Shown here one piece after another: positions 2,766 to 56,748 of a DNA stretch of 64,000 nt (positions within the stretch are counted from its first letter, which is position 1; every line of letters starts with the position of its first letter). Location: assembly GCA_014193315.1 (NCBI GenBank), contig BJHS01000002.1, positions 124,001-188,000 on the forward strand, given 5' to 3'. Position numbers and translations under genes: made by a program. Below the pieces are notes generated by a model, which worked only from the letters and a program-made list of their open reading frames with translations, was not told the DNA's origin and searched no databases. Source of the DNA: Verrucomicrobiota bacterium. GTDB taxonomy: Bacteria; Verrucomicrobiota; Verrucomicrobiia; Opitutales; UBA953.

Positions 2766-2798
2766 CTGGCCAACGGGCCGACCGATCAACAGGTCAAC
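2766..2798 (-). repeat. Dispersed GTTGATCGG/TTGGCCAG repeat, copy 1
   Basis: Read on the minus strand this shows GTTGATCGGTCGGCC-like sequence followed by GTTGGCCAG, matching the family at 8327, 23993, 55857 and 55983. It lies between the convergent comF and rluA-like genes and covers the stop codon of the latter. Confidence 0.55.
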
Positions 2799-3589
2799 GC
2801 CGCAGCCAACTGCGCCTCGGTGCAGCCCATCGGGCCGAGCACAAAGGCGCGCATGTCGGCGGCCAGGGGCGCCGCGAAGACCCGCGTCAGCTTCGGTGAG
2901 CGGAAATCGAGCCGCGCGGCATGCAGCGCCTGACGGCCCATCTCGAGGTGCTTGGCGAGCCGCGGCGTCCAACCATGCGCGATGAACTCGAGGAAGAGCG
3001 TGTCGTCGCCACCGTACATCTTATCACCCACGACCGGGCAGCCGAGCCAAAGCGCGTGGGCCCGGATCTGATGCTTGCGGCCCGTGTGCGGCTGGACGCG
3101 GGCGAGCACATAACCGGCGTTCGCGAGGACCGGCTCGAAGAAGGTGGCCGAGGGTAAGCTGCCGGGCCCCTCGCGCACGGCGGTCTTCACCACGACCTCG
3201 CTCGTCTCATCGGGCCCGAGCGGCTGGTCGACCATGATCGGTTCCGGCAGGACCCCCTTGAGCAAGGCATAGTAAGTCTTGGTGACCCAGCGACGCTCCA
3301 TCGCGGTCTGCGCGGCGGAGGCCGCCTCATAATGTTTGGCGATCAGGATGATACCGCTCGTCTCGCGGTCCAGCCGGCTCACGAGGTGCAGGACCTCCAG
3401 CCCGCGCCACTCCTTCACGGCGCCGACGAGCGAGGACCACGGGCCATTCTTGGACGGGTGGCAGACGAGCCAACCTGGCTTGTCGAATACCAGGTAGTCG
3501 GCGTCCTCCTCGAGCAACCAGTGGGGCAAATCGGCCGGGTCAACCTTGGGAGGCGTGCTGCCAGGCGGGACAAAACTAAAATCGCTCAT
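2786..3589 (-). CDS. RluA-family RNA pseudouridine synthase
   Basis: A 267-residue pseudouridine synthase of the RsuA/RluA superfamily. The catalytic motif SRLDRETSGIIL carries the conserved Asp, and downstream are the family segments KTYYALLKG, QPHTGRKHQIRAH and GCPVVGDKMYGG. An N-terminal S4 domain is absent; the protein begins almost directly with the catalytic domain (YLVFDKPGWLVCHPSK). The target site in rRNA or tRNA cannot be deduced. The start ATG overlaps the folC stop in an ATGA arrangement, so it is likely translated with folC. Confidence 0.88.
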   Translation of the reverse strand: MSDFSFVPPGSTPPKVDPADLPHWLLEEDADYLVFDKPGWLVCHPSKNGPWSSLVGAVKEWRGLEVLHLVSRLDRETSGIILIAKHYEAASAAQTAMERRWVTKTYYALLKGVLPEPIMVDQPLGPDETSEVVVKTAVREGPGSLPSATFFEPVLANAGYVLARVQPHTGRKHQIRAHALWLGCPVVGDKMYGGDDTLFLEFIAHGWTPRLAKHLEMGRQALHAARLDFRSPKLTRVFAAPLAADMRAFVLGPMGCTEAQLAAALTC

Positions 3590-6887: not shown

Positions 6888-8267
6888 TCAGCGCCGCGGC
6901 GTCCCCGCGAGTCGCTCAAGCAGCAACTCGTAGGCCGTCACCGCTCGTTCCGCCATGCGGATCTCGAAATTCTCGTCGGGCGCGTGCAAGTTGGAGTCGG
7001 GGGTGAAGAGCCCGATCATGACGGAATCGAGCCCCGTCTCGCGCCGGATGTCGCCGATGATCGGCACGCTGCCGCCCTCGCGCAGGTAGAGCGGGGGCTT
7101 GCCGAAAGCCTCCCCGATGGCCTTGTCCGCCTCCCGGAACGCCCGCGCCAGCACCGGGTTCTGATCTTTCGGCGTGTTCGGCCGGTCGGGCGGGCAAACG
7201 TAGTAGGCGCCGTTGCCCTGCATCTCCTGGATATCGACGCGCACGCCTTTCGGGGCACGGGCGCGGACCGCCTCGGCCACCTTGCGATGCACGAAGACCG
7301 GGTCTTGGCCGGGGACGAGGCGACAGGTGATCTTGGCGAAGACCTTGGAGGGGATGACGGTCTTGGACCCCTTGCCTTGGTAGCCGCCGCCGATGCCATT
7401 GAACTCGAGCGTCGGGGCGAACCGGACGGCCTCGAGCCCGTTGAGCCCGGGCGCGGCATGGAGCTCATCGACGCCAAGGAAGCGACGGTACTCGTCCTCG
7501 TTCATCGGCAGCTTGGCCAGCTGTTCCCGTTCCCAGCGCTCGGGCTGCTGGACTCCATCGTAAAACCCGTCGATCGTGACGGCGTTGTCCGCATCGTGCA
7601 GCGAGGCGCAGAGCTCGGCCAGCGCCTGGATCGGGTTGTAGACCGCGCCGCCGTGCAGGCCGGAATGCAGGTCGGAACGCGGGCCGGTCAGGCCGACCTC
7701 CAGACCGATGATGCCGCGCAGGCCGGTGGTGATGACGATCTGATCGGAAGTCGGCGAAGCCGTGTCGGACAGCACCACGCAGTCGGCCTCGGTGAGTTCA
7801 GCCTTATGGTTATGTAGGAATTCCGGAAAACTCGGGGAGCCGATCTCCTCCTCGCCCTCGATGAGGAAGGTGATGCGCAGCGGAAGGTCGGGCCGGCGCC
7901 GGAGAAGGCGCGTCAAGGCGACCACGGAGACGAGGTGCGGCCCCTTGTTGTCGGCGGTACCGCGGCCCCAGACCTTGCCATCGCGGACGACGGGCTCGAA
8001 GGCCGGCGTGGTCCAAAGGTTCAGCGGGTCGGCCGGCTGGACGTCGTAGTGACCGTAGAGGACGACGTGCGGCCATTCGGCCGGACCGCGGCGACGGGCG
8101 AGCACGATGGGATGCAAGGGGGTCGGGACGACCTCGACCTCCAGCCCGGCTTGTTTAAGGAGACCACAGATATGCAGACGGGCGCCATCCATGCCGGCCT
8201 TGAAAGCCGGGTCGGTGGAGACGCTGGGGTGCTTGACGTACTCGATGAGTTCGCGGACGAGATCCAT
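6888..8267 (-). CDS. M20 family metallopeptidase (dipeptidase)
   Basis: A 459-residue zinc peptidase of the M20 family, closest in layout to cytosolic non-specific dipeptidases. Metal-ligand and catalytic motifs are visible: LYGHYDVQPAD (His and catalytic Asp), GRGTADNKG (bridging Asp) and IEGEEEIGS (catalytic Glu and ligand). The dimerisation domain lies in the middle (GLEVGLTGPRSDLHSG). YLREGGSVPI and PDSNLHAPDENF near the end supply the last ligand. No signal peptide is evident, so it should be cytoplasmic. The start is 219 bp from the divergent tyrS. Confidence 0.9.
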   Translation of the reverse strand: MDLVRELIEYVKHPSVSTDPAFKAGMDGARLHICGLLKQAGLEVEVVPTPLHPIVLARRRGPAEWPHVVLYGHYDVQPADPLNLWTTPAFEPVVRDGKVWGRGTADNKGPHLVSVVALTRLLRRRPDLPLRITFLIEGEEEIGSPSFPEFLHNHKAELTEADCVVLSDTASPTSDQIVITTGLRGIIGLEVGLTGPRSDLHSGLHGGAVYNPIQALAELCASLHDADNAVTIDGFYDGVQQPERWEREQLAKLPMNEDEYRRFLGVDELHAAPGLNGLEAVRFAPTLEFNGIGGGYQGKGSKTVIPSKVFAKITCRLVPGQDPVFVHRKVAEAVRARAPKGVRVDIQEMQGNGAYYVCPPDRPNTPKDQNPVLARAFREADKAIGEAFGKPPLYLREGGSVPIIGDIRRETGLDSVMIGLFTPDSNLHAPDENFEIRMAERAVTAYELLLERLAGTPRR

Positions 8268-8326
8268 CCCCTCATTAGGAGGGTTCGGCGACCAAGGGCA
8301 AGAGAGGGTGACGGACGACCGGCTCA

Positions 8327-8352
8327 GGTTGATCCGTTGATCGGTTGGCCAG
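8327..8352 (+). repeat. Dispersed GTTGATCGG/TTGGCCAG repeat, copy 2
   Basis: GGTTGATCC is followed by GTTGATCGGTTGGCCAG, which is identical over 17 bases to a segment at 24001. It lies in the intergenic space between the divergent M20 peptidase and tyrS genes. Confidence 0.65.
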
Positions 8353-8384: not shown

Positions 8385-8432
8385 TCACCCTAACTAACCC
8401 TAGCCCAGACCCTGTCCCTCGCCCTAGCCCTT
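8385..8432. repeat. CCCTA-rich imperfect low-complexity tract
   Basis: This part of the 219-bp space between the M20 peptidase gene and tyrS is made of imperfect CCCTA/CCCTG units spaced every 5-8 bases. It codes for nothing credible and may be a degenerate short repeat array. The same gap must also contain the tyrS promoter, which I cannot place. Confidence 0.4.
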
Positions 8433-10955: not shown

Positions 10956-11714
10956 TCAGCGCCCCGAACGCTCGCGGCGGGCCAGCTCCAGCAACATGGC
11001 CTCGGTGAGGAACATGGAGAAGGCGTCTTGCATCGCGCGGACCCAGCCCCGCGGGCCGGAGAAAAGCATGCGGCGGAAGAACAGGTGTTTCACCAAGCCG
11101 AGGGGGAAGGCGCCCACCAAGCGCAGGAAAGAATAGCCGCGCGCGTCGCGATGCCGCATCCGCGCCTTGAGCACGGAGTATTTGTTCAGCTTGTCCATGT
11201 AGCCAGCCACCGTGTCGTAGCCGAAATGGGCCAACCCGACCCCGGGCAGCAACTCGTGCCGTCCCGGTACGGCCACGTGCTCGTGCACGAGTTTGCGCTC
11301 ATCCCAGCGAGCCCCGGCTCGCCGGTAGAGGCGGAGGAACGGCCGACAATGCGACGCGCTCATCGATTCGCCCATGAATCGGTCGTCGCGACGGAGGTAG
11401 AAACCGTCGGCCCGGCCGCTGGCGATGGCCGCCTTCATGAGGGCGAGCGCGCCCGGCGAAAGGACCTCGTCGCCGTCGAGGTGCAAGACCCACTCATGCC
11501 GGCACTGCGTGAGCGCGAAGTTTTTCTGCGCCGCGAAGCCCAGCCAATCTTGGTGCACGACGCGGGCGCCCGCCGCCCGGGCGATCTCCAAGGTGCGGTC
11601 GGTCGACCCGCTATCGACGATCAGGATCTCCTCGGCGCCGACGCACGCCGCCAGCACCTCGGCCAGGTGGCGTTCCTCGTTCTTGGTGATCAGGTAGACG
11701 GTCAGCGACGCCAT
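10956..11714 (-). CDS. Glycosyltransferase family 2, WaaE/KdtX-like
   Basis: A 252-residue GT2 enzyme of the type often named WaaE/KdtX, which adds glucose to heptose in lipopolysaccharide inner cores. Visible are LTVYLITKNEERHLAEVL, ILIVDSGSTDRT, the WVLHLDGDEVLSP donor and metal motif, and HEHVAVPG. A hydrophobic stretch near LVGAFPLGLVKHLFF may contact the membrane. The start at MASLTVYL is preferred over the longer frame to 11855, which would overlap the end of dnaE. Its gene order with the GT4 gene suggests shared transcription. Acceptor assignment is inference from family. Confidence 0.85.
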   Translation of the reverse strand: MASLTVYLITKNEERHLAEVLAACVGAEEILIVDSGSTDRTLEIARAAGARVVHQDWLGFAAQKNFALTQCRHEWVLHLDGDEVLSPGALALMKAAIASGRADGFYLRRDDRFMGESMSASHCRPFLRLYRRAGARWDERKLVHEHVAVPGRHELLPGVGLAHFGYDTVAGYMDKLNKYSVLKARMRHRDARGYSFLRLVGAFPLGLVKHLFFRRMLFSGPRGWVRAMQDAFSMFLTEAMLLELARRERSGR

Positions 11715-22898: not shown

Positions 22899-24005
22899 AT
22901 GGCCCAACGCCCGCTCGGTTTCGGCATCTGGGGAACCGGCATGATCGCCGAGTTCCACGCGAAAGCTTTGGCTGAAATCCCCGGCGTCCGCCTCGTCGCG
23001 GCGTATAATCGCACGGCAGCGAAGGCCGCGGCTTTCGCCGCGACCCATGGGTGCGCCGTCGCGGCGACGCCGGAAGCGCTCTTGGCCGACCCCGCGGTCG
23101 ATGTCGTCTGCCTGTGCACCCCGAGTGGCGACCACCTCGCCCCCGCCCTCGCCTGCATCCGCGCGGGCAAGCACGTCGTCGTCGAGAAGCCGCTGGAAGT
23201 CACCTTGGCGAAGTGCGACGAACTCATCGCCGCCGCGCGTTCCGCGGGGGTGACCGTCGCCGGTATCCTCCCCCGCCGCTACGTGCGGGGCTCAATCGCG
23301 CTGAAGGCCGCGCTCGACGTGGGCCGCTTCGGTCCCGTGACGCTGGCCTCGGCGCTCATCCCTTGGTGGCGCACCCAGGCCTATTACGACTCCGCCGCTT
23401 GGCGCGGGACCTACACCCTCGACGGGGGCGGGGCCTTGATGAACCAAGGTATCCACACCATCGACTTGCTCCTCTGGTTCCTCGGTCCGGTGAAGCGCGT
23501 CTCGGCCACCCTCGGGCTCGTCGCGCACGCCGGCATCGAGGTCGAGGACATCGCCGTCGGCTGGATCGAGTTCGCCAACGGCGCCCGCGCCACGCTGGCC
23601 GGCGCCACCGCCTGCTGGTCGGCCACCGGCTTCCCCGCCGAGATCCGCATCCATGGCACGAAGGGCGCGGCGGTGCTGCGCGACGACAAACTGACTTCCT
23701 TCGAGTTTGACCCTCCTCTGCCCGCCGACGCCGGATTCATCGCCTCCGCCCCGGAGACCGGTGGCGCCGGCGCAGCCGACCCCAAGGCGATCAGCCACGG
23801 CTGGCATCGCCTCAACCTCGTCGACGCGATCGAAGCGATCCGCGCCGGCCGCCAACCCGCGGTCGACGGCGCCGAAGGCCGCAAGGCCGTGGAGCTCATC
23901 CTCGCGCTTTATCAGTCCGCGCAGTCGGGCGGGACGCCTGTCGATTTACCCCTGAAGCAGGACCCTGTCCTGAAGGCGTTCGGTAAGAAAAAGTTGATCA
24001 GTTGA
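22899..24005 (+). CDS. Gfo/Idh/MocA family oxidoreductase
   Basis: A 368-residue NAD(P)-dependent sugar oxidoreductase. The Rossmann motif is FGIWGTGMIAEFHAKAL, followed by VVCLCTPSGDHLAPALACI and the family signature VVVEKPLEVTLAKCDEL. The C-terminal substrate domain has RGTYTLDGGGALMNQGIHTIDLLLW, the helix carrying the conserved Gly-Gly and His-Asp pairs. The substrate is unknown; its place between sugar genes suggests a nucleotide or free sugar. It is divergent from rfbB and converges on the PglC-like gene. A dispersed repeat covers its stop codon. Confidence 0.88.
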   Translation: MAQRPLGFGIWGTGMIAEFHAKALAEIPGVRLVAAYNRTAAKAAAFAATHGCAVAATPEALLADPAVDVVCLCTPSGDHLAPALACIRAGKHVVVEKPLEVTLAKCDELIAAARSAGVTVAGILPRRYVRGSIALKAALDVGRFGPVTLASALIPWWRTQAYYDSAAWRGTYTLDGGGALMNQGIHTIDLLLWFLGPVKRVSATLGLVAHAGIEVEDIAVGWIEFANGARATLAGATACWSATGFPAEIRIHGTKGAAVLRDDKLTSFEFDPPLPADAGFIASAPETGGAGAADPKAISHGWHRLNLVDAIEAIRAGRQPAVDGAEGRKAVELILALYQSAQSGGTPVDLPLKQDPVLKAFGKKKLIS

Positions 24006-24063
24006 TCGGTTGGCCAGAGCAACCCAACATTGGTTGGCCGGTTGAATCGTTGGCCGGTCAACG
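23993..24063 (+). repeat. Dispersed GTTGATCGG/TTGGCCAG repeat, copy 3 (longest)
   Basis: This copy contains GTTGATCA, then GTTGATCGGTTGGCCAG (24001-24017), then after a short break GGTTGGCCGGTTGAATCG and a near-palindrome CGTTGGCCGGTCAACG. It covers the last codons and stop of the Gfo/Idh gene and fills the convergent gap before the sugar transferase gene. Confidence 0.65.
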
Positions 24064-55856: not shown

Positions 55857-55890
55857 GGTTGATCGGTTGAATCGTTGGCCGGTTGGCCAG
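55857..55890 (+). repeat. Dispersed GTTGATCGG/TTGGCCAG repeat, copy 4
   Basis: GGTTGATCGGTTGAATCG is followed by TTGGCCGGTTGGCCAG, combining both halves of the family in one continuous block. It lies in the 176-bp space between kdsB and kdsD, 14 bp upstream of the kdsD start. Confidence 0.65.
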
Positions 55891-55934
55891 AGGAGGAAAA
55901 GAGCGGCAACCCAGACGCGGGTTGATTTGAAGCG

Positions 55935-55950
55935 AAGCCGACTTCGGCTT
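55935..55950. other. Hairpin in the kdsB-kdsD spacer
   Basis: AAGCCG-ACTT-CGGCTT is a perfect 6-bp stem with a 4-base loop, midway in the spacer. It has no T run on either side, so it is not a convincing intrinsic terminator. It may be an attenuation or RNA-processing element. The rest of the spacer holds repeat copies 4 and 5. Confidence 0.35.
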
Positions 55951-55982
55951 GTCCGGCACTTAGCGGCGATTTTGCATCGTCA

Positions 55983-56010
55983 TCAAGTCAACGGGCCAAC
56001 TGGTCAACCC
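55983..56010 (-). repeat. Dispersed repeat, copy 5, inverted relative to copy 4
   Basis: On the minus strand this reads GGGTTGACCAGTTGGCCCG and then TTGACTTGA, related to the repeat family at a lower identity. Together with copy 4 it makes an inverted pair flanking the hairpin at 55935-55950. It ends 10 bp beyond the kdsB stop. Confidence 0.4.
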
Positions 56011-56019
56011 GCCGCGCAA

Positions 56020-56748
56020 TCACACCATCTTCCGGGCGACCTCGAGGTCTTCCGGGGTGTCGATGGCGACGGGGTGGTAGTCGGTCACGACCGTCTGGAA
56101 CGTCTGGCCGTGGGCGAGAAAGCGCAGTTGCTCGAGCGACTCGGTAGCCTCCAATTCGGTCGGCGTCAATTGGGCGTAGCCGGCGAGCGTGGCGCGGTCG
56201 TAACCGTAGACCCCGATGTGCACCCAGTAATCGCGCCGGGCGACCCATTCGGCCGGGTCGACCCCGCGCAGATGCGGGATCGGGCTCCGCGAGAAGTAGA
56301 TGGCCGCGCCGTTCTCGGCCCGGACGACTTTGACGACGCTGGCCGCGTGGAGCCGCTCAGCGGTGGCGATGCGCGAGACGGCGGTGACCAAGGGGCAACG
56401 CGTCTCCTTCCAGCGGGTGATGAGGCCATCCAGCAACTCGGGCTGGATGAACGGCTCGTCGCCCTGCACGTTAAGGAAGAACTCCCCGGGCAGCTGGTCG
56501 ATGACGCTGGCCATGCGGGCCGTGCCGGAGGGACAGGCCGGATCCGTCATCAAGACCTCAGCGCCAAAGCCTCGCGCGATACCAGCGACCTCCTCGGAAT
56601 CAGTAAGCAAGACGACGCGATCGGCCTGACGGACCTGGCGGGCGCGCTCCCAGACGTGCTGGACGACGGGCTTACCACCAAGATCGAGCACGACCTTGCG
56701 GGGGAGCCGCGTGGAGGCGAGGCGGGCGGGGATGCAGAGGGTGACCAT
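56020..56748 (-). CDS. kdsB: 3-deoxy-manno-octulosonate cytidylyltransferase
   Basis: A 242-residue CMP-Kdo synthetase, which activates Kdo for lipopolysaccharide. Motifs: VTLCIPARLASTRLPRKVVLDLG, VVQHVWERARQV, VLMTDPACPSGTARMASVID, FFLNVQGDEPFIQPELLDGLI, YFSRSPIPHLRG and LEQLRFLAHGQTF. Length is normal. Its product with KdsD points to a Kdo-containing outer membrane glycolipid. kdsA and kdsC are not in the window. The start is 115 bp from the end of the GbsR-type regulator gene. Confidence 0.96.
   Translation of the reverse strand: MVTLCIPARLASTRLPRKVVLDLGGKPVVQHVWERARQVRQADRVVLLTDSEEVAGIARGFGAEVLMTDPACPSGTARMASVIDQLPGEFFLNVQGDEPFIQPELLDGLITRWKETRCPLVTAVSRIATAERLHAASVVKVVRAENGAAIYFSRSPIPHLRGVDPAEWVARRDYWVHIGVYGYDRATLAGYAQLTPTELEATESLEQLRFLAHGQTFQTVVTDYHPVAIDTPEDLEVARKMV

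Follow-up and report, generated by a model that had tools for sequence, protein, structure and literature searches.

The short repeats that lie between genes in the window, meaning the whole stretch of 64,000 nucleotides analysed here, may well be the arms of a non-autonomous, dispersing inverted-repeat element that behaves like a MITE or a REPIN. Each arm is a phased array of octamers, and arrays of opposite orientation within one spacer face each other. The arrays are nearly absent from genes, are limited to one genus among the searched genomes, and are present, absent or replaced from one species to another. The repeat system was found in a single Opitutae genus (from lakes, according to the record titles). 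At the sites examined it occupies long spacers, and it is renewed from one species to another at about 94% identity. The design of its ends, phased octamers with nearly free positions, is unusual.

All five blocks described in the original prediction were recovered. The first, at 2768–2798 on the minus strand, is an array of four octamers (GTTGACCT GTTGATCG GTCGGCCC GTTGGCC) that contains the stop codon of a pseudouridine synthase gene (2786–3529), the TGA at 2788–2786 lying inside octamer 2. The second (8328–8352, plus strand) comprises three octamers followed by AG and occupies the spacer between two divergent genes, one for an M20 peptidase and one of the tyrosyl-tRNA-synthetase type. The third block (23993–24062, plus strand) holds two arrays of one spacer. 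The array at 23993–24017 has three octamers and AG and starts within the last codons of the gene at 22899–24005 (plus strand), whose TGA stop (24003–24005, plus strand) comes from octamer 2; these two genes account for the two overlaps with stop codons that had been claimed. The other array, at 24033–24062 (plus strand), reads GTTGGCCG GTTGAATC GTTGGCC and then GGTCAAC. The remaining blocks form a facing pair, with a left arm of four octamers and AG (55858–55890, plus strand), an interior at 55891–55985, and a right arm of three octamers (55986–56008, minus strand) whose outer edge is 11 bp from the stop of a cytidylyltransferase gene (56020–56748). The 17 bases said to be common to the second and third copies are indeed identical at 8336–8352 and 24001–24017. 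With up to three mismatches allowed, this 17-mer has five matches in the window, where 100 dinucleotide shuffles gave 0.29 on average and two at most, so that chance is an unlikely source. The neighbouring genes are ordinary, encoding a double-zinc-ribbon protein, the pseudouridine synthase, the M20 peptidase, the protein of the tyrosyl-tRNA-synthetase type, a GFO/IDH/MocA oxidoreductase, a sugar transferase, an SIS/CBS protein and the cytidylyltransferase. The arrays were unmatched in Rfam 15 at the gathering score, the sole match in the window being a tRNA, and a literature search with most subscription papers outside its scope led to no published description recognised as theirs, in agreement with the earlier remark that no named family has this sequence. 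A short degenerate run of CCCTAAC/CCCTAGC-like units at 8388–8430 adjoins the 8328 array and is partly kept in G061, the nearest relative met.

When read in register, each block of the window proves to be a series of octamers following GTTG-R-N-Y-N. The blocks had been described as mixes of two half-units; the GTTG units are present, but each is an octamer set in a constant 8-bp register, and an array has three or four of them. The unit, termed class A, is a phased array mostly of four octamers, A-GTTGAYCN-GTTGAYCN-GTTGGCCN-GTTGGCCA-GA. In 116 loci of relatives (417 kb) chosen by their neighbouring genes, 55 contexts anchored on the innermost octamer only, with the upstream sequence then read, gave the consensus ta-GTTGAtcg-GTTGAnCa-GTTGGCCa-GTTGGCCA-GA, and information in these gene-chosen contexts was 0.0–0.3 bits one octamer outside it. 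The same consensus appeared in sets of 47 (G000, the genome carrying the window), 125 (named relatives) and 31 (others) contexts and in the 205 pooled contexts, whose loci were mostly fetched by pattern, so that the consensus is partly built in. As the array finder sees them, arrays mostly have three or four octamers. Information in the outer octamers is maximal at positions 1–5 and low at positions 6 and 8. With GTTG held and positions 6 and 8 nearly free, the array has the look of a recognition site in several copies and not of a tandem repeat after even decay. Neutral decay of a perfect tandem repeat would be even, so the profile calls for constraint at particular positions or for exchange between copies that are not alike. 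The base preceding class A arrays is A in 67–95% (20–22% in spacers), and TA precedes 14–56% of them (background about 3%), with TA before only 5 of 36 arrays in G000. Among orthologues of two window genes, inspected by eye, arrays often start at the stop codon, formed by TA plus the first G or by the TGA inside GTTGA. An 8-bp periodicity was not found in 144 spacers taken from array-poor G000 stretches and from the window.

The enrichment in the full genome that the original prediction called for was found. In G000 (2.36 Mb, 97% complete), an exact 15-mer has seven matches and the three-unit pattern GTTGRNYNGTTGRNYNGTTGGCC has 44, with none for the reversed control in either case. The looser GTTGRNYNGTTGRNYNGTTG with one mismatch gave 81 matches versus 55 for its reversed control, a poor separation that arises partly because the reversed control also demands GTTG every eight bases. 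Of 55 genomes that belong to one Opitutae genus, 37 contain the three-unit pattern, with 1 to 81 matches each, and none of 20 genomes from other families of the order does; the reversed control in the other genomes of the genus is small and sometimes nonzero (six matches in G029 versus 81 for the pattern). Named holders comprise at least 80 loci; among the matches listed, most belong to Opitutae or Verrucomicrobia assemblies, and many bear the name of a lake in their title. Viral contigs gave no match of the 35-base array pattern. Matches outside Opitutae (15 loci, e.g., in Nocardia, Frankia, Desulfobacterium and an Olavius symbiont) were rejected and excluded from later counts, being mostly plain GTTGGCC tandem octamers with no A-to-G unit order. 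Octamer runs of the GTTGGCC type occur at L114, L116, L134, L145, L147 and L109, under Desulfobacterium, Desulfosudis and Olavius symbiont titles; some are mixed with GTTAGCC, GTTTGCC or GTGGGCC units and may be a parallel case. A contig labelled Polynucleobacter meluiroseus (L128:2621–2920) resembles positions 8200–8350 of the window, carries a class A array, and looks like misbinned Opitutae sequence.

The statement that the blocks always lie at gene ends or between genes is correct for the window, where no array is within a gene called by a purpose-built codon-usage caller trained on the window, as opposed to an annotation pipeline; it is not absolute in relatives, with 1 of 54 arrays in the gene-chosen loci lying within a called gene. 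Arrays within called genes number 0 of 44 in G000 (the filtered list; without the filter there are 46, including a GTTGGGT run of a different type), 0 of 40 in G001, 0 of 64 in G029, and 3 of 119 in the named loci. Of the 54 flanking proteins, 53 were scanned, and the 25 families listed out of 88 include no mobile one. Where both orientations share a spacer, 32 of the 33 orientation changes run from plus to minus (P = 8e-9, after removal of 11 named loci of genomes already counted), and 31 of the 32 mixed-orientation spacers are all plus and then all minus. The gene-chosen loci behave alike, all 11 of their orientation changes being inward-facing. The exception, in G029, is a minus array followed 732 bp away by a plus array, with no gene there even at a lower calling threshold. 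Facing order was seen in convergent, codirectional and divergent spacers, which makes it a property of the element and not of the genes. A simple polarity with the 3′ end of the upstream gene is ruled out by its occurrence in the codirectional and divergent ones. The 12 facing pairs of G000 have interiors of 61–298 bp with no called gene inside, and some G001 pairs are longer; the interiors of facing pairs are mostly unshared. Single or direct-tandem arrays are common (28 plus-plus and 27 minus-minus neighbours).

The arrays differ between closely related species. G061 shares 94% protein identity with G000 at two genes, and of the window's four loci, the 2768 site is empty there and the gene has another C-terminus, GCTGGCC-type repeats stand in place of the class A array at 23993, and orthologous arrays are found at 8328 and at the 55858 left arm, the interior beside the latter being longer in G061 and mostly unalignable. 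For G001 and G029, which are about 94% identical, the comparison covered 13 spacers with arrays; some are nearly unchanged, and in others modules were gained, lost or replaced. One stretch of 109 bp, most of one arm plus the interior, is present in G029 and missing from G001 between 94–95% identical stretches. The spacer on the cytidylyltransferase side measures 23–34 bp in 3 and 139–638 bp in 22 of the 25 loci with a called neighbour (own locus included, out of 30 listed). Cross-spacer matches of at least 60 bp within one genome number 22 in G000, 219 in G001 and 891 in G029 (e.g., 281 bp at 96.4%), counts that take in any repeat in array-bearing spacers. Target duplications, proposed earlier as a feature to look for, were sought in the G001/G029 and G000/G061 comparisons and in the flanks of facing pairs, and none was demonstrated; neither comparison yielded a clean empty site with such a duplication. 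A TA target duplication as in TA-specific MITEs is suggested by the flanks and undemonstrated, TA standing at both outer ends in 2, at one in 13 and at none in 17 of 32 facing pairs.

Several other explanations can be weighed against a dispersing element. The arms could serve the host as RNA hairpins, acting for instance as bidirectional transcription terminators or as stabilisers of mRNA 3′ ends between convergent genes, which we regard as quite improbable. Convergent spacers are the commonest of the 29 array-bearing spacers in G000 (13, beside 12 codirectional, three divergent and one undetermined), 18 of 36 strictly defined arrays there begin no more than 25 bp from a stop codon of the same orientation, and RNA folding predicts that most left-arm bases (18–31 of 31) pair with the right arm in 19 of 20 facing pairs, the mean duplex energy being −49.3 kcal/mol versus −17.5 kcal/mol for a letter-shuffled arm. 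However, facing order is not confined to convergent spacers, proximity to the stop is weak in G061 (3/29), G001 (8/46) and G029 (8/74), and the pattern is missing from 18 of the 55 genomes of the genus. The pairing is also untuned within a locus: swapped arms pair equally well (−48.5 kcal/mol, P = 0.26) and the arms of one pair are no more alike than those of different pairs (12 G000 pairs, P = 0.32), which leaves a maintained arm-to-arm pairing within the locus unsupported. A slimmer prospect is that the arrays are binding sites with a role in the nucleoid, segregation or regulation, GTTGRNYN being read repeatedly by a modular protein. Phasing and position-specific constraint would suit such a site, as would class C, a second class with the same plan, and the uneven spread in G000, where 12 of 31 hand-merged sites fall on the nine largest contigs versus 19.2 expected (P = 0.01). 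In 31 orthologous arrays, taken from either genome of the compared pair, the GTTG letters also differ in place less often than letters 5–8 (13/421 versus 29/389, P = 0.006), yet they are not clearly separated from the rest of the spacer, which differs at 4.9% (P = 0.11). No protein is known to read the arrays, and a range of 0 to 81 matches among species of one genus would be odd for a needed site.

A third possibility, spread without any transposase, is doubtful but less improbable than these two. Repeats already lying in spacers would give rise to arrays and inverted arms, and renew them, through slippage, template switching and gene conversion with one another, and copying templated by hairpins would account for the facing order. 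This reading is favoured by a direct module (class A array, class C array and GC hairpin) whose copy number at one site is higher in G029 than in G001, the breakpoint coinciding with a repeated GAGGCAAAGCGGCGG stretch, and by several spacer interiors that differ wholesale between these two genomes, with about 94% identity around them. The greater variation of positions 5–8 (29/389) than of GTTG (13/421) would likewise result from gene conversion between unlike copies. Such processes explain local change, but not the same array in unlinked spacers beside unrelated genes, and the arms of one spacer are no more complementary than chance pairs, whereas template switching predicts otherwise.

In the dispersing inverted-repeat element preferred here, each arm is made of three or four phased octamers that keep GTTG and leave outer positions 6 and 8 nearly free, and it lies in the spacer with its GTTGATC end outward and its GTTGGCCAGAGG end inward. 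The fullest element would consist of two facing arms; an arm that stands alone or in tandem would represent a partial or rearranged one. Entry may occur beside A, often TA, and near or within a stop codon it would be tolerated because the array supplies a stop, either the TGA inside GTTGATC or TA plus the array's first G. The arms of a pair are no closer to each other than chance pairs are, unlike a recent insertion of the whole unit. Spread would presumably proceed by transposition in trans, with an enzyme that is missing from G000 or unrecognised. The enzyme may have been lost after the spread or may belong to another family, or the arms may have spread by recombination instead.

As to the earlier label of REP/MITE-like, the arrays are dispersed, intergenic, inverted and patchy among species, and spacer segments are shared within a genome, whereas the REP/RAYT half of the label fails. 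The outer consensus A-GTTGAYC and the inner GTTGGCCAGA show no GTAG or CGTC tag at either end, and a search of the 97%-complete G000 for three families, Y1_Tnp, RVT_1 and DDE_Tnp_1, gave no match. A REP would in addition hold a palindrome (stem-loop) of 20–40 bp in every single copy; the folding here covered facing pairs. Class A is present in 18 of 28 Y1-positive and 19 of 27 Y1-negative genomes of the genus, without association, and none of the 12 Y1 loci fetched carries class A arms. The RAYT/IS200-like partner that had been suggested is ruled out for G000 and as a predictor of the arrays across the genus. Three facing pairs 500–4500 bp apart enclose one to three called genes (phytase/autotransporter, esterase, an unassigned 63-residue ORF), with no transposase between the arms. 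Neither these three pairs nor the search of G000 for the three families revealed an IS with ends matching the arrays. There are 44 pattern matches in G000, yet three common enzyme families went undetected there, which raises the question of what moved the arrays. Three Y1 transposase loci of the genus (L264, L268 and L272) lie near GGGGTCAGACCGCTTCC-like inverted repeats and have no class A arms.

Among the features tabulated for small bacterial repeats are inverted ends, duplication of the target and a terminal TA (PMC2229807); as far as that tabulation goes, the present element has the inverted ends and, in part, the terminal TA. With the MITEs that have TA termini (Correia/NEMIS, ERIC/RU-1 and RUP), as characterised in the same tabulated material, it shares its small size, largely intergenic position, lack of a gene of its own, inverted ends and repetition, as well as a TA that is often beside the end and the capacity to form stem-loops (PMC2229807). 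Unlike them, its ends are arrays of degenerate octamers, its two arms are not close copies, many of its arms are single or tandem, and it comes with no demonstrated target duplication and no matching-end IS found. The element is called MITE-like rather than a MITE, and is not filed as a REP. According to the passages of PMC3733652 that deal with their tags, REPs bear GTAG or CGTC, and the GTAG kind is linked to RAYTs. Tagged REPs and the TIR repeats, associated with RAYT/TIRYT, resemble the arrays, so far as these passages describe them, in being short intergenic repeats that often form facing pairs (PMC3733652); they differ in that class A is untagged, G000 has no detected Y1 domain, and Y1 presence does not track class A. 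GTAG...CTAC two-hairpin sequences do occur in array-bearing spacers, some of them between class A arms. These REPIN-like sequences (e.g., GTAGGGCTGACCACCCTTGGTCAGCC...GCTCAACCCTAC) were seen in spacers of relatives at L215, L218, L229 and other loci; one lies between facing class A arms at L338:4810–4900, and the L325 spacer 10956–11692 also carries them. The STRR and degenerate heptanucleotide repeats of heterocystous cyanobacteria are likewise degenerate short-period arrays between genes; the present arrays differ in that each consists of three or four octamers, with letters specific to the unit and with an outer edge.

Class A is accompanied by sister arrays. Class C, GCTGGCCG GTTGACAA GTTGACCN GTGGGCAA GGGAGG (short form, GYTGGCC-GTTGACAA-GTTGACM-GTKGGCAA-GGGAGG), follows a four-octamer plan like that of class A. 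It was read from 94 contexts, and the consensus of 26 gene-chosen contexts agrees. In all 32 cases in which it lies near class A the two share a strand, and modules in the order A, C and GC hairpin occur in G029 and G001. Class G, made of GAGG octamers (GAGGCCC x3-GTTGACCA), looks similar; its consensus is clear in 53 contexts under a GAGG-requiring filter and weak in 72 unfiltered contexts. Tentatively, and against what we would ourselves expect, classes A (GTTGAYC/GTTGGCC), C and perhaps G, all of them runs of octamers that begin with G, might be variants read by one machinery dedicated to the genus. It would recognise 8-bp words in phase while tolerating certain letters, and would lay down arms that face inward at and near stop codons. 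We know of no bacterial transposon or REP with such a mode of recognition. The spacers of L184–L201 and L216–L233 carry further arrays, including GTGCAAAG octamers around a GC hairpin and degenerate short-period runs of the GGTCTCGGGTCTC and GGGGTAGGGGTCG types, and in several of these spacers the extra arrays form nested inverted arms.
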